A DNA stretch of 64,000 nt from NCBI RefSeq assembly GCF_900103955.1, contig NZ_FNIL01000009.1:1-64000 (forward strand). The letters run 5' to 3'. Made by a program: the position numbers and the translations under genes. Positions 4,478 to 33,530 of this stretch are shown here, piece by piece (the first letter of the stretch is position 1; each line of letters begins with the position of its first letter). The notes beneath the pieces are model-generated. The model was not told the DNA's origin, did not search any database, and saw nothing but the letters and a program-made list of their open reading frames with translations. The stretch comes from Alkalicoccus daliensis (lineage in GTDB: Bacteria; Bacillota; Bacilli; Bacillales; Salisediminibacteriaceae).

Positions 4478-5551
4478 ATGGCACAAAATCAGCTGGCTGA
4501 ATATCAGAGCAGACAGGAAAAAAGGCAGTCCCGCCATAAAAAAATCCCACTTAAAAAAGTTGCAAATCAGGTAATAGTTATTACCGGAGCTACAAGCGGG
4601 ATTGGTTTGTCTACTGCCAGAATGGCGGCTGCCAAAGGGGCCGCTGTCGTACTTGCTGCAAGAAATGAAGAAGCGCTGCAGGAGATAACGAATGAGCTGA
4701 GGGAACAAGGTGCATCAGCAGTCTGGGTTAAGGCAGATGTAAGCAGGGAGGAAGAAGTAAAACAAATTCTCGCAACCGCACTGGAGCAGTTTGGCCGTGT
4801 AGATACATGGGTGAATAATGCAGGTATCGCAATGTTCGGAGAGGCAGATGAAGTCAGTATCGAAGACCTTCGCAGCTTATTTGAAACGAACTTCTGGGGA
4901 GCTGTGTATGGCTCCAGAACTGCTTTGCAATATTTTAAAGAGCAGAGAAGTGCAGGCGCGTTAATTAATATGGGGAGCGCCTATGGAGACATGGGTGTGG
5001 TGCTGCAATCCGGGTATTCCGCTGCAAAGCATGCCCTGCATGGCTGGACAAAAAGTCTGCGGACAGAAATGGAAGCGAAAGGTCTTCCTGTTTCAGTAAC
5101 GTTAATTAATCCGGGAAAAATAGATACGCCGGTGAACGAACATGCCGCCAGCTATATGAAGCACCAGCCCGCACACCGAGAATTAACTTATCCGCCAAAA
5201 ACAGCAGCCGAGGCAGTACTGCACGCAGCAGAGCATCCGAAAAAAATAATCTATGTTGGCTCTCAGGCGCGTCTGGTCGGGCTTTTGGAAAACGGAGCTC
5301 CAAACCTGTCTGATAAGCTGATCGCGTTGCTGATGTCCAGAACACAGCATGCAGATAAACCTTCACAGGCAAAAGAAAATAATGCTTTATACAGGGCAGG
5401 GACAGGACAGAAAGAGCATGGGGAGCATCCCGGCTTGAAAAGGTCCACCAGCTGGTATACGAAAGCTTCAAAGCACCCAGTACTTACTTACCTTGCTTTC
5501 GCAGGTGCAGTGTGCGGGGCACTATGGACATTTCTTTCAAAAAAGCGTTAA
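4478..5551 (+). CDS. SDR-family oxidoreductase with C-terminal membrane anchor
   Basis: A 357-residue short-chain dehydrogenase/reductase. The Rossmann motif is TGATSGIG, NNAG follows, Ser lies in NMGSAYGD and the catalytic pair is YSAAK. The chain is about 100 residues longer than a classical SDR: after the catalytic domain comes a polar stretch, then a single hydrophobic helix (HPVLTYLAFAGAVCGALW) and a basic tail, predicting a membrane tether with the enzyme in the cytoplasm. The ATG at 4478 has AAAGGAGC in front; a GTG at 4412 has no ribosome site. The substrate cannot be told from sequence. Confidence 0.85.
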   Translation: MAQNQLAEYQSRQEKRQSRHKKIPLKKVANQVIVITGATSGIGLSTARMAAAKGAAVVLAARNEEALQEITNELREQGASAVWVKADVSREEEVKQILATALEQFGRVDTWVNNAGIAMFGEADEVSIEDLRSLFETNFWGAVYGSRTALQYFKEQRSAGALINMGSAYGDMGVVLQSGYSAAKHALHGWTKSLRTEMEAKGLPVSVTLINPGKIDTPVNEHAASYMKHQPAHRELTYPPKTAAEAVLHAAEHPKKIIYVGSQARLVGLLENGAPNLSDKLIALLMSRTQHADKPSQAKENNALYRAGTGQKEHGEHPGLKRSTSWYTKASKHPVLTYLAFAGAVCGALWTFLSKKR

Positions 5552-5573
5552 AAACAACTAAGCAGAATGCAAG

Positions 5574-5612
5574 CGCCCGCAGGAGAAAAAACACTTCTGC
5601 TGCGGGCGTTTT
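5574..5612 (+). terminator. Rho-independent terminator
   Basis: CGCCCGCAG pairs with CTGCGGGCG followed by TTTT, just after the SDR gene. Confidence 0.8.
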
Positions 5613-5639
5613 GTATATAAAGTTAAAAAACGGAAATTA

Positions 5640-5738
5640 TTAGCGGAAATCCCGTTTGTTTTCACGGCTGCGTGCTGCTATTGCATAAAACAAAAGTGAA
5701 GTAAGCGTTAGCAGCAGTATAAGAAGTGTGTTCTTCAT
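5640..5738 (-). CDS. Small single-pass membrane protein, 32 residues
   Basis: An ORF of 32 residues starting MKNTLLILLLTLTSLLF and ending with the charged tail ARSRENKRDFR. It is preceded by TAGGAGGATATGAGAA, a strong ribosome site. The composition (one hydrophobic helix, then a positively charged cytoplasmic tail) is that of a small membrane peptide. I do not recognise a family. It lies between a plus-strand terminator and the ndh stop codon, on the same strand as ndh but upstream-independent. Confidence 0.55.
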   Translation of the reverse strand: MKNTLLILLLTLTSLLFYAIAARSRENKRDFR

Positions 5739-5835
5739 TTCTCATATCCTCCTATTCCTATAGTAACGATTAAAAATAATACTCAAAATGCTTTCCGGGT
5801 TTCGAGGTCAAAGATGGAGGGTAGTTTACTTCAGT

Positions 5836-7047
5836 TTAAAACATTGTGAACTTTCCCTTTTTAAGCACCAGCGCCGGCCCTCCGAGCATCAATAAATATC
5901 TGTTATCAATCACGTTTTTCATCGCACGGGCTGTTTTGCCATATAATTTTGTGTTTGAAAAGATAGTGCCGCAAGCGTCACCACCGCCAAGGGATACGAC
6001 TACTCCCTTATCGGAAAAGTTAAACTCTTTCAGCCGTGTCTCGCCGCGGATAAGAAATTTTAAATTCTCAGCACAGGTTTCAGCTTCCTGTGTGGCAATC
6101 TGTGCAGTAGGTGGGTATGGTTTATTCAGCTCTTTGTTTGTAACCCAGGCACAGTCTCCCAATACAAATATATTTTCATCTTCTGGCATCCGCAGATCAT
6201 CATTTACGTTTACTTTTCCTTTAAAAACATTGAAATTTGAAGCAGTCAGTACAGAACTTCCCTGGACGCCTCCTGTCCATACAATCGTCCCTGCTTTAAT
6301 TTCCTGATTACCGGCAATTTTAATACCGTCAGAAGAACATTCTTCTATTTTTGTATTTGTTAAAAATTCGATTCCTCTTATTTTAAGGTTATTTTTTGTA
6401 TAATCGATAAGCTCTTCGTCAAATCCTGGAAGAATTGTGGGAGCCATTTCTACATTGATTATTCTTACTTTTCTACGGTCTATGTCGAATTTTTTGCAAA
6501 GCTTGGGGATGGAATCTGCGAGTTCTCCAAGAAACTCGATTCCAGTAAAGCCGCTGCCTCCGACAATAATATTTAATTTGCCGCTGTTTTCGTTTTCGCT
6601 TCGGTAGGTAGCAAATTGATATTCAATATGATGATAAATCTCCCTGCTGGAGTCAATGGAGCTGATAGAAAAAGAATGCTCGTCAAGACCAGGGATTCCA
6701 AAGGTGGCTTTTTCAAAGCCGAGTGCAAATACTAGGTAATCGTATTCCAATACACCGTTATCTAAAATTACCTGTTTTTCTTCTTTATTTACTTTTTGAA
6801 CGGTGTCATATACAAGACTTACACGCTTTTCACTAATAATATCACTTATCATTATTCGTGCCTGATTTTGGCTCATCGTTCCTGCCGCAACTTCATGCAG
6901 CCAAGTGGTAATATGATGATAATTATGTTTGTTTACAAGTGTGATTTCTGCTTCTTCCGGACCCAGTTTCTTCACGAGCCGCCTGGTTGTAATCATTCCT
7001 GCGTAACCAGCACCGAGTACAACTATTTTAGGTTTATGGTTTTGCAA
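5836..7047 (-). CDS. ndh: Type II NADH dehydrogenase (NDH-2)
   Basis: A 403-residue single-subunit, non-proton-pumping NADH:menaquinone oxidoreductase bound to the inner face of the membrane. It has an N-terminal FAD site (VVLGAGYAGM), a second dinucleotide site for NADH (IIVGGSGFTGIE), the FAD-binding FVLGDCAW segment and the quinone-site AQIATQEAE. Length matches Bacillus YjlD/Ndh (about 390-400). The start is TTG at 7047, preceded by GAGGCGGG; no ATG alternative keeps the FAD motif. It is monocistronic. In Bacillus this gene is Rex-controlled, but only a poor Rex-like site is seen upstream. Confidence 0.9.
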   Translation of the reverse strand: MQNHKPKIVVLGAGYAGMITTRRLVKKLGPEEAEITLVNKHNYHHITTWLHEVAAGTMSQNQARIMISDIISEKRVSLVYDTVQKVNKEEKQVILDNGVLEYDYLVFALGFEKATFGIPGLDEHSFSISSIDSSREIYHHIEYQFATYRSENENSGKLNIIVGGSGFTGIEFLGELADSIPKLCKKFDIDRRKVRIINVEMAPTILPGFDEELIDYTKNNLKIRGIEFLTNTKIEECSSDGIKIAGNQEIKAGTIVWTGGVQGSSVLTASNFNVFKGKVNVNDDLRMPEDENIFVLGDCAWVTNKELNKPYPPTAQIATQEAETCAENLKFLIRGETRLKEFNFSDKGVVVSLGGGDACGTIFSNTKLYGKTARAMKNVIDNRYLLMLGGPALVLKKGKFTMF

Positions 7048-28985: not shown

Positions 28986-29294
28986 ATGCGATTTGAAATT
29001 CCATTGCAGCAAACAGACTTTAAAGCCTATGAAAAGAAATTCAAAGCTTTGGCTGATGAAAAAAGACTGCATCTCTTGTCTATTCTCTGCCAGGAAGGTC
29101 CGGCCTGTGTATGCGATCTGACTGAAAAACTGGAACTGCCGCAGTCAAAACTGTCCTACCACTTAAAAATACTTATGGATGCAGAGATGCTTGTCCGGGA
29201 AAAGCGGGGGACTTGGAATTACTATTCTATTAACAGCGAAGTGATTGACCACCTCTTATCAGAGCAACTCTGCTGCGTTTTCCGCCCGGCTTAA
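28986..29294 (+). CDS. arsR: ArsR/SmtB-family metalloid-responsive repressor
   Basis: A 102-residue winged-helix repressor. ADEKRLHLLSILCQEGPACVCDLTEKLELPQSKLSYHLKIL spans the DNA-binding core; CVCDL in helix alpha-3 is the arsenite-binding pattern of ArsR. Two extra cysteines near the C-terminus (EQLCCVF) could be a third ligand. Stop lies inside a GC-rich hairpin (GCCCGGCTTAAGCCGGG) that may act as weak attenuator before arsP. Four matching operators surround the gene. Confidence 0.88.
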   Translation: MRFEIPLQQTDFKAYEKKFKALADEKRLHLLSILCQEGPACVCDLTEKLELPQSKLSYHLKILMDAEMLVREKRGTWNYYSINSEVIDHLLSEQLCCVFRPA

Positions 29295-29318
29295 GCCGGG
29301 TGCTTTCAAGGATTAAAC

Positions 29319-29334
29319 ATCAAAATAATTTGAT
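29319..29334. promoter_or_regulatory. ArsR-type operator 3
   Basis: ATCAA-AATAAT-TTGAT in the arsR-arsP gap. Confidence 0.65.
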
Positions 29335-29345
29335 GTAATCAATAT

Positions 29346-29361
29346 ATCAAAAATAATTGAT
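29346..29361. promoter_or_regulatory. ArsR-type operator 4
   Basis: ATCAA-AAATAA-TTGAT, 11 bases before the arsP start. Confidence 0.65.
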
Positions 29362-29372
29362 GAAATGAGGTA

Positions 29373-30248
29373 ATGGAAATGGAAGTACTGCAGAGCTTTT
29401 TTGCAATCATGGTGAAGTTAACAGTTTTATTCGTTGGAATTTCTTTTGTACTGCACTTGTTTCAAGTATTTATTCCTTATGAAAAAATGGAAAAGTGGCT
29501 GCGGCAATCGAACCCGGTAACGGGAGGAGTGGTTGCCCTGACTTTTGCTTTTTTCACACCTTTTTGTTCCTGCTCTACCATCCCTGTAATTGTCAATCTG
29601 CTGAAAAACAATGTACGGTTTGGAACAGTGATGGTATTTTTATTTGCGTCTCCGGTGCTGGATCCCACGATACTCACGATTATGGGTGTCATTATGGGAT
29701 GGGAAACTGCTGTTATGTATACGATACTTACTTCTCTTATTGCTTTGACAATTGGACTGGTGCTGGAAGCTTTCGGCTTTGAAAAATCTCTGAAGCCGGT
29801 AGTAATGAGAGAACCAAACAGGAAGAAAACCAGCTTTTCCCCAAAACGGGCCTGGCTGGAAACTTGGAAAACGATGAAAACGGTCTATCCCTACTTGCTT
29901 ATCGGTGCTGCAGTTGGAGCAGTTATCCACGGCGTCGTCCCTGCGGAATTTATCAGCACCTATTTCGGCGGAGATGCATGGTGGCTGATCCCGGTGGCAG
30001 CCGTGGCAGGAATTCCGCTTTACATCCGGCTTTCCAGTATGATTCCTATTTCGCAGGTGCTGATCGTGAACGGGATGGCGCTTGGTCCCGTCATGGCAAT
30101 GATGATCAGTTCGGCCGGGGCAAGCCTGCCGGAATTAGTGCTCTTAAAGTCTATTTTTAAAAGGGAACTGATAGCTGTATTTGTAGTATCTGTAGTGGCA
30201 ATGTCTACAATTTCAGGCTTTCTGTTTTATTGGACGCAGTGGCTGTAA
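29373..30248 (+). CDS. arsP: ArsP-family permease (organoarsenical efflux type)
   Basis: A 291-residue membrane protein of the ArsP/DUF318 permease family with about eight helices. The signature is FFTPFCSCSTIP (two cysteines flanking Ser) followed by ASPVLDPTIL and, in the second half, the repeat-like IPLYIRLSSMIPISQVL. ArsP exports trivalent organoarsenicals; a general metalloid role is possible. It sits 78 bases after arsR with two further operators, so it is probably controlled by the same repressor. Confidence 0.82.
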   Translation: MEMEVLQSFFAIMVKLTVLFVGISFVLHLFQVFIPYEKMEKWLRQSNPVTGGVVALTFAFFTPFCSCSTIPVIVNLLKNNVRFGTVMVFLFASPVLDPTILTIMGVIMGWETAVMYTILTSLIALTIGLVLEAFGFEKSLKPVVMREPNRKKTSFSPKRAWLETWKTMKTVYPYLLIGAAVGAVIHGVVPAEFISTYFGGDAWWLIPVAAVAGIPLYIRLSSMIPISQVLIVNGMALGPVMAMMISSAGASLPELVLLKSIFKRELIAVFVVSVVAMSTISGFLFYWTQWL

Positions 30249-32827: not shown

Positions 32828-32980
32828 CTGAATAAAGATTCTGTTATAGATAATGAAGGCATACCGTAAAACTGCATCCTGAGCGAATCATCGAAAGCCT
32901 TAATTTTCAGAAAGTAAACATCATTTCCCTTAAACAAGGGTAATATTAAATGAACTTACTTTTAAGAAAGAGGTGGTTTC

Positions 32981-33487
32981 ATGTCAGAATTTAAGCTGGG
33001 ACAGCAGGTGCCGGAAATTTCCCTGCCGGCAGCTTCCGGAGAAACCTATCACTTATCAGAAGATCAAAAGAAAAGAGAAGGCTGGAGATTTATTGTCTAT
33101 TTCAGAGGCTCCTGGTGACCAGCATGCAAACAGGATCTGGAAGATCTTGCAGCGAACAAGAGTTACTTTGATAAACACAACATTCACTTCACAGCTGTTT
33201 CTACAGATTCAGAAGAAAATCTGAAACAGTGGCAGGAGGAAAATAACTTTCCATTCCCATTACTCGCTGACGAAAATTTTGCGCTGCTCCATGATTATGG
33301 AGTGTATCTGCACGATGATGAAGAAGCACCGTATAAGGATGAGGGAAAACATGGGGAACCAGCTGTGTTTCTGCTCGATGAAGAAGGGAAACTCCTTTAT
33401 CAGCAGAAGCAGACGAGTCCTTTTGGAAGACCTGACGCAAAAGAATTACGGAAAATAGCAGCTTATATTAAGAAGAATTTAAAATAA
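32981..33487 (+). CDS. Probable selenoprotein: peroxiredoxin-like (AhpC/TSA) with UPAC redox motif
   Basis: Read through one in-frame TGA (33116-33118, codon 46) this is a complete 168-residue thioredoxin-fold protein: FKLGQQVPEISLPAASGETY, FIVYFRGSW-U-PACKQDLEDL, AVSTDSEENLKQW, FPFPLLADENFALLHDYGV, HGEPAVFLLDEEGKLLYQQ. The TGA sits exactly where relatives carry the first cysteine of CPAC, leaving Cys49 as the second redox residue. Coding quality is equal on both sides, AAAGAGGTGG precedes the ATG, and no in-frame restart with a ribosome site exists. A hairpin 12-31 bases after the UGA fits the bacterial SECIS pattern. Selenocysteine is therefore the best reading; a nonsense mutation or TGC misread as TGA is the alternative. 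No Sec machinery genes are in this window. Confidence 0.75.
33131..33149 (+). promoter_or_regulatory. Candidate bacterial SECIS hairpin
   Basis: CAGGATCT (33131-33138) pairs with AGATCTTG (33142-33149) as 8 continuous base pairs including one G-U, with loop GGA. The loop starts 20 bases after the UGA. Bacterial SECIS elements typically have a short apical loop with a G in its first two positions, about 16-37 bases after the UGA. Confidence 0.6.
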
Positions 33488-33491
33488 AAAT

Positions 33492-33530
33492 GTCCGGGTA
33501 CCTCATAAAAAGAGATACCCGGACTTTGTT
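33492..33530. terminator. Bidirectional rho-independent terminator
   Basis: GTCCGGGTA pairs with TACCCGGAC between the convergent selenoprotein and subtilisin genes. Confidence 0.85.

Follow-up and report, generated by a model that had tools for sequence, protein, structure and literature searches.

The first 64,000 nucleotides of an Alkalicoccus daliensis contig (C3:1-64000, here called the window, in a genome of 3.78 Mb in 28 contigs) contain a peroxiredoxin (Prx)-like gene with a UGA in its redox motif, which raises the question of whether this codon has broken an ordinary cysteine gene or is read as selenocysteine (Sec). A reading of the sequence alone had described one TGA at 33116 in an otherwise intact frame, and the frame and its translation bear this out. 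With the UGA as Sec (U46), positions 32981-33487 of the forward strand yield a product of 168 residues ending at a TAA stop, and the single in-frame TGA (33116-33118) is codon 46, in the context FRGSW-U-PAC. The features of the locus are as follows.

32970-32976, forward strand: GAGGTGG, a putative Shine-Dalgarno-like sequence 5' of the ATG, read off the sequence
32981-33487, forward strand: predicted Prx-like selenoprotein gene (frame, translation and AhpC-TSA match of 5.8e-26)
33116-33118, forward strand: codon 46, UGA (predicted Sec), at the first of the redox positions in UPAC; TGA in seven distinct genes
33125-33127, forward strand: TGC codon of Cys49, the partner Cys (profile alignment to Aeropyrum pernix 2cx3 and homologue rows)
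33131-33149, forward strand: candidate bacterial SECIS apical hairpin of 8 bp with loop GGA at 33139-33141 (hairpin test and synonymous conservation; the hairpin alone is non-significant)
33492-33524, no strand assigned: terminator-like 13-bp hairpin between the selenoprotein gene and a convergent subtilase gene, scored by the scan on the reverse strand only

The terminator scan found one such hairpin, against a mean of 0.7 in shuffled sequences. Elsewhere in the window, positions 28986-30248 hold a gene for an ArsR-type regulator and, after it, one for an ArsP_1 permease.

The AhpC-TSA match (PF00578) of the read-through protein spans the TGA, covering residues 7-140 with 91.3 bits (cut-off, 26), and PF13911 ranks third among its Pfam matches at 30.4 bits; no NCBIfam model reaches its cut-off for this protein. 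Downstream of the TGA, no in-frame ATG, GTG, or TTG occurs until the GTG at 33302, 62 codons away, and therefore no restart site lies nearby, as had been claimed.

The predicted Cys at codon 46 of homologues was found in 107 of 118 fetched rows (65 TGC and 42 TGT), and the remaining 11 rows have TGA. These rows are a fetched subset, comprising 80 of the 227 profile matches and the best-hit loci of the family and order searches, and they represent 98 distinct contexts, 7 Sec and 91 Cys; four of the 11 TGA rows repeat a record already counted, which leaves 7 distinct genes, and duplicates occur among the Cys rows as well. Besides the A. daliensis gene, five TGA genes with 62 to 74% identity occur in three congeners and Salibacterium aidingense, the carriers within the genus being A. 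daliensis, Alkalicoccus chagannorensis, one further congener (G002), and A. saliphilus, which has two copies. The two A. saliphilus copies lie about 41 kb apart, and the second is diverged and has a weaker hairpin (-1.1 kcal/mol). The seventh TGA gene, 49% identical and otherwise open in frame, is that of Aneurinibacillus tyrosinisolvens LL-002. Thus, a UGA aligned with the homologue Cys is kept between species.

The search of the GTDB family gave matches in 8 of 35 genomes at 1e-20, with no stop in those of A. luteus, G009, G022, and G025. At the level of the order, 102 of the 397 sampled genomes matched, with S. aidingense (74% identity) as the one additional TGA genome and four weaker matches having an internal TAA or TAG; within the family of S. 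aidingense, 6 of 29 genomes matched and TGA was found in S. aidingense alone. Only 2 of 398 genomes in the phylum sample matched at 1e-15, A. daliensis included, and this sample therefore gives little information on Sec forms outside Bacilli. A plasmid search returned 83 matching records, all below 60% identity. A contig scan with the single protein as the query found no relative; a profile scan recovered the relatives.

A TGA is one base away from the Cys codons TGC and TGT, and an otherwise ordinary Cys gene, its downstream part dead, could show it through either nonsense mutation or an error in sequencing. However, seven distinct genes share the TGA at this position, including those of named independent assemblies, which also makes an error to be corrected by resequencing at 33116 very unlikely, and purifying selection persists 3' of the TGA. 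Among the six closely related Sec genes, pN was lower than pS on both sides of the UGA in all 15 pairs (pN of 0.04 to 0.36 and pS of 0.60 to 0.92 before it; pN of 0.08 to 0.23 and pS of 0.44 to 0.89 after it). A broken Cys gene is, on this evidence, scarcely credible.

The sequence-only reading would have fallen with the absence of selA, selB, selC, or selD, and all four are present in the same genome, clustered on contig C15 over about 6 kb.

C15 424984-425076, reverse strand: tRNA-Sec gene (selC), 59.2 bits, ARAGORN anticodon tca
C15 425207-427054, forward strand: selB, 387 bits (cut-off, 242)
5448-6515 of the fetched C15 locus (L002), reverse strand: selD, 408 bits (cut-off, 125)
C15 429851-430948, forward strand: selA, 446 bits

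The tRNA-Sec gene is the sole match in the genome above the cut-off of 47. The selD gene has one in-frame UGA of its own (KAGUGCK); Sec-containing SelD is common, with 38 counted in Table 1 of PMC1794560. Because the whole Sec machinery is in the genome and the same codon is kept in relatives, it is almost certain, as a prediction, that the UGA at 33116 is read as Sec.

The A. daliensis genome contains 10 PF00578 matches, 9 of them above the cut-off, and 4, including that of 32981-33487, have one in-frame TGA. The three additional TGA candidates, seen in this one genome, each have a hairpin of 6 to 7 bp with a G at loop position 1 or 2.

C11:64005-64379: candidate Prx-type selenoprotein, TPGU-IKEL (TxxU pattern)
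C11:24535-24858: candidate Prx-type selenoprotein with a lipoprotein-like signal sequence, STU-QVC
C24:11927-12220: candidate Prx-type selenoprotein, HLGU-PIC; its best NCBIfam model is SelL-related (85.6 bits; cut-off, 120)

Four matches to PF00384 (FdhA-like, molybdopterin oxidoreductase) contain no TGA within the match, and the TGAs at two of these loci fall in an upstream extension of the frame. The PF00384 frames have Cys at the site where FdhA carries Sec. In total, five selenoprotein genes are predicted, SelD and four of Prx type; TGA forms were searched in PF00578 and PF00384, and more selenoproteins may exist.

The hairpin claimed after the UGA is present, with 8 bp, the loop GGA, and distances of 12 nt from the UGA to the stem and 20 nt to the loop. 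The best evidence for a putative RNA element at this place is, however, synonymous-codon conservation and not the hairpin. At shared residues, the six Sec genes use the same codon in 101 of 123 cases in codons 47-58, compared with 696 of 1483 at all other positions; of the windows of 12 codons, the one from codon 49 onward scores best. In codons 49-58, the same codon is used in 89 of 98 cases (91%), against 299 of 625 (48%) in codons 20-45 and 61-100, an excess that is not to be counted as six independent events, the six main Sec genes being of common ancestry. Control sets of six, drawn from 50 Cys genes thinned to <85% identity, never reached this excess (0 of 2000 random sixes and 0 of 50 nearest-neighbour sets).

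A hairpin of at least 5 bp whose first or second loop base is G, by criteria set by the authors on the model of a bacterial SECIS rule, occurs in 7 of 7 Sec contexts versus 23 of 91 Cys contexts, and 6 of 7 versus 10 of 91 have TGGA at the loop; the Aneurinibacillus gene has its own 7-bp hairpin with the loop GGU. The hairpin was not unusual against dinucleotide shuffles (z of -0.14 to -1.78), an equally long stem arose in 307 of 2000 synonymous recodings of the Prx-like gene, no compensatory pair changes were found among the six genes, and an Rfam scan of the gene gave five sub-threshold matches and none at the cut-off. As stand-alone proof, the hairpin was rejected on the shuffles, the recodings, and the lack of covariation. 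For the other Sec stretches, equally long stems arose in 186 (C11:64005), 319 (C11:24535), 8 (C24:11927), 1886 (selD), and 255 (Aneurinibacillus) of 2000 recodings, and only the C24:11927 hairpin stands out among the six stretches. The test, which requires an ungapped stem with G in the loop, finds a stem of just 3 bp in the A. daliensis selD and is thus not a complete SECIS model.

The non-significance of the hairpin by itself would suit a UGA that is read in some other way, such as by near-cognate suppression, or that serves as a regulatory stop, in either case without Sec. However, the TGA occupies the redox-Cys position of homologues, the genome has the Sec machinery genes with a UGA in selD itself, and three other Prx-type genes of the genome have TGA at redox positions, which together make such a reading very improbable. 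Under the Sec reading, SelB and tRNA-Sec would decode the UGA, a putative RNA element within the gene, immediately 3' of it, would direct Sec insertion, and some ribosomes would presumably terminate there.

The sequence-only reading had also held that such a selenoprotein would be uncommon in Bacillaceae. This does not apply to Sec decoding, which is common in the GTDB family of A. daliensis, as SelA is found in 28 of its 35 genomes; what is restricted there is the Sec form of the Prx-like protein. SelA is present in all six genomes with the TGA form and in 6 of 11 distinct Cys-form genomes tested (A. luteus, G022, G025, G065, G361, and the Paenisporosarcina genome G436), the five without it being G009, G172, G106, G063, and G391. 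The direction is as expected, the sample is small, and SelA presence discriminates poorly between the two forms. A selenocysteine synthase has been reported in A. tyrosinisolvens (PMC7996765).

In a tree of 97 proteins, six Sec genes cluster together (100/98), and the same cluster includes the Cys form of A. luteus on a long branch. The TGA gene of Aneurinibacillus is placed among Cys genes. At least three changes between Cys and Sec are required on this tree, which does not itself fix their direction. The likely history is that Cys was converted to Sec twice, separately, and Sec reverted to Cys once, the long-branch placement of A. luteus being unsure, and the Aneurinibacillus TGA is probably a separate Cys-to-Sec change. 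A. luteus has the Cys form despite its SelA, on a very long branch within the Sec group, possibly as a return to Cys. The A. daliensis and Salibacterium genes are sisters (95/56), a relationship that, along with the scattered distribution, points to a possible transfer from one genus to another.

The protein is predicted to be an atypical Prx, with the Prx fold and a thioredoxin-like UxxC site. An AlphaFold2 model (pLDDT of 93.3; pTM of 0.89) has PrxQ/BCP and other Prx proteins as its top structural matches (Foldseek, 1.4e-13) and superposes on 3hjp with a Z score of 22.8 and an rmsd of 2.4 over 158 aligned residues. A profile alignment to A. pernix 2cx3 pairs Sec46 with Ser, Cys49 with Cys, and Arg42 with Pro; by this alignment, the Sec would stand at the thioredoxin-like first position, and Cys49, not Sec46, would match the 2cx3 Cys, which is taken to be peroxidatic. 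U46-P-A-C49 would then be the active-site motif of a thiol oxidoreductase with a Prx fold, in which Sec46 may attack a peroxide or a disulfide, Cys49 may resolve Sec46 through a selenenylsulfide, and a reductant of thioredoxin type may reset the enzyme. In the authors' judgement, a peroxidase is somewhat favoured over a disulfide reductase.

Thioredoxin-like CxxC sites use their first residue as the nucleophile. The roles could nevertheless be divided otherwise, with Sec inserted but Cys49 peroxidatic and Sec46 resolving, or with the protein acting as a thioredoxin-like disulfide reductase and not as a peroxidase. The 2cx3 alignment points this way, and RGSWUPAC has neither the Pro nor the Thr of the Prx motif, which PMC13188914 writes as PxxxTxxU for Sec peroxiredoxins. 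However, Sec occupies the first position of the site in two separate places in the tree, and these options, taken together, are serious but less likely than not.

UxxC Prx-like selenoproteins had been described as known in other bacteria, and they are an established predicted class in the surveys cited here: eight PF00578 proteins with three Cys-to-Sec events in PMC1794560, Prx-like selenoproteins in 28 organisms in Table 3 of PMC5029168, and further entries in the tables of PMC13188914 and PMC9312934 and in PMC2398784. By its sequence, the A. daliensis gene would belong to this class, and the added interest lies in the host and in the number of Prx-type candidates in this one genome. It shares the PF00578 family and the UxxC motif, with Cys at codon 49 in all 118 rows, with the Prx-like thiol:disulfide oxidoreductase selenoproteins (UxxC/UxxU; reference WP_010940744.1), a likeness at the level of family and motif. 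Cys-to-Sec conversions are recorded for that class in Table 1 of PMC1794560 and in the tables of PMC13188914 and PMC9312934. Its listed carriers include deltaproteobacteria and one clostridium (PMC1794560), marine metagenomes, and Asgard archaea (PMC13188914), whereas the carriers here are Bacillaceae.

Sec peroxiredoxins (TxxU; PrxU) have the Prx fold and PF00578 in common with this protein but place Sec at the second redox position, not the first; the protein scores 36.9 bits with the NCBIfam PrxU model (cut-off, 270) and has UxxC in place of T/SxxU, with Cys49 at the peroxidatic position. The cd02970/AhpC-TSA_2 selenoproteins in PMC13188914 and PMC9312934 are also AhpC/TSA-like with U first, but their motif is UxxS, and PF13911 is only the third match here. 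Similarity to the SelL-related redox protein family NF040769 is weak over the full family (49.3 bits), below the cut-off of 120. For Bacillales, Table 2 of the 2006 survey (PMC1794560) gives three selenoproteins in three families. Among the open-licence texts listed, neither selenocysteine nor selenoprotein was found together with Alkalicoccus or Salibacterium, which does not imply absence from print.

Gene callers that end genes at UGA would truncate this gene or call it broken, and so overlook a redox enzyme that is conserved in these bacteria. In the argument of PMC1794560, a Cys-to-Sec conversion is possible only where the Sec trait and FdhA are already present, and in organisms that lack FdhA the trait may be kept by Sec-containing SelD. 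It is an evenly balanced proposition that Alkalicoccus and its relatives have a Prx-fold selenoproteome, made up of SelD and four Prx-type proteins (UxxC, TxxU, lipoprotein-like UxxC, and SelL-like UxxC) with no Sec FdhA found, in which selenium redox enzymes, not formate dehydrogenase, would maintain the Sec trait, with repeated Cys-to-Sec conversion and transfer between genera. With a SelD of Sec type, FdhA-like genes that lack a Sec codon, and four Prx-type candidates, this genome would be a direct test case for the maintenance of the Sec trait, and the Sec and Cys forms within one genus would provide natural pairs for measuring the benefit of Sec to the enzyme.
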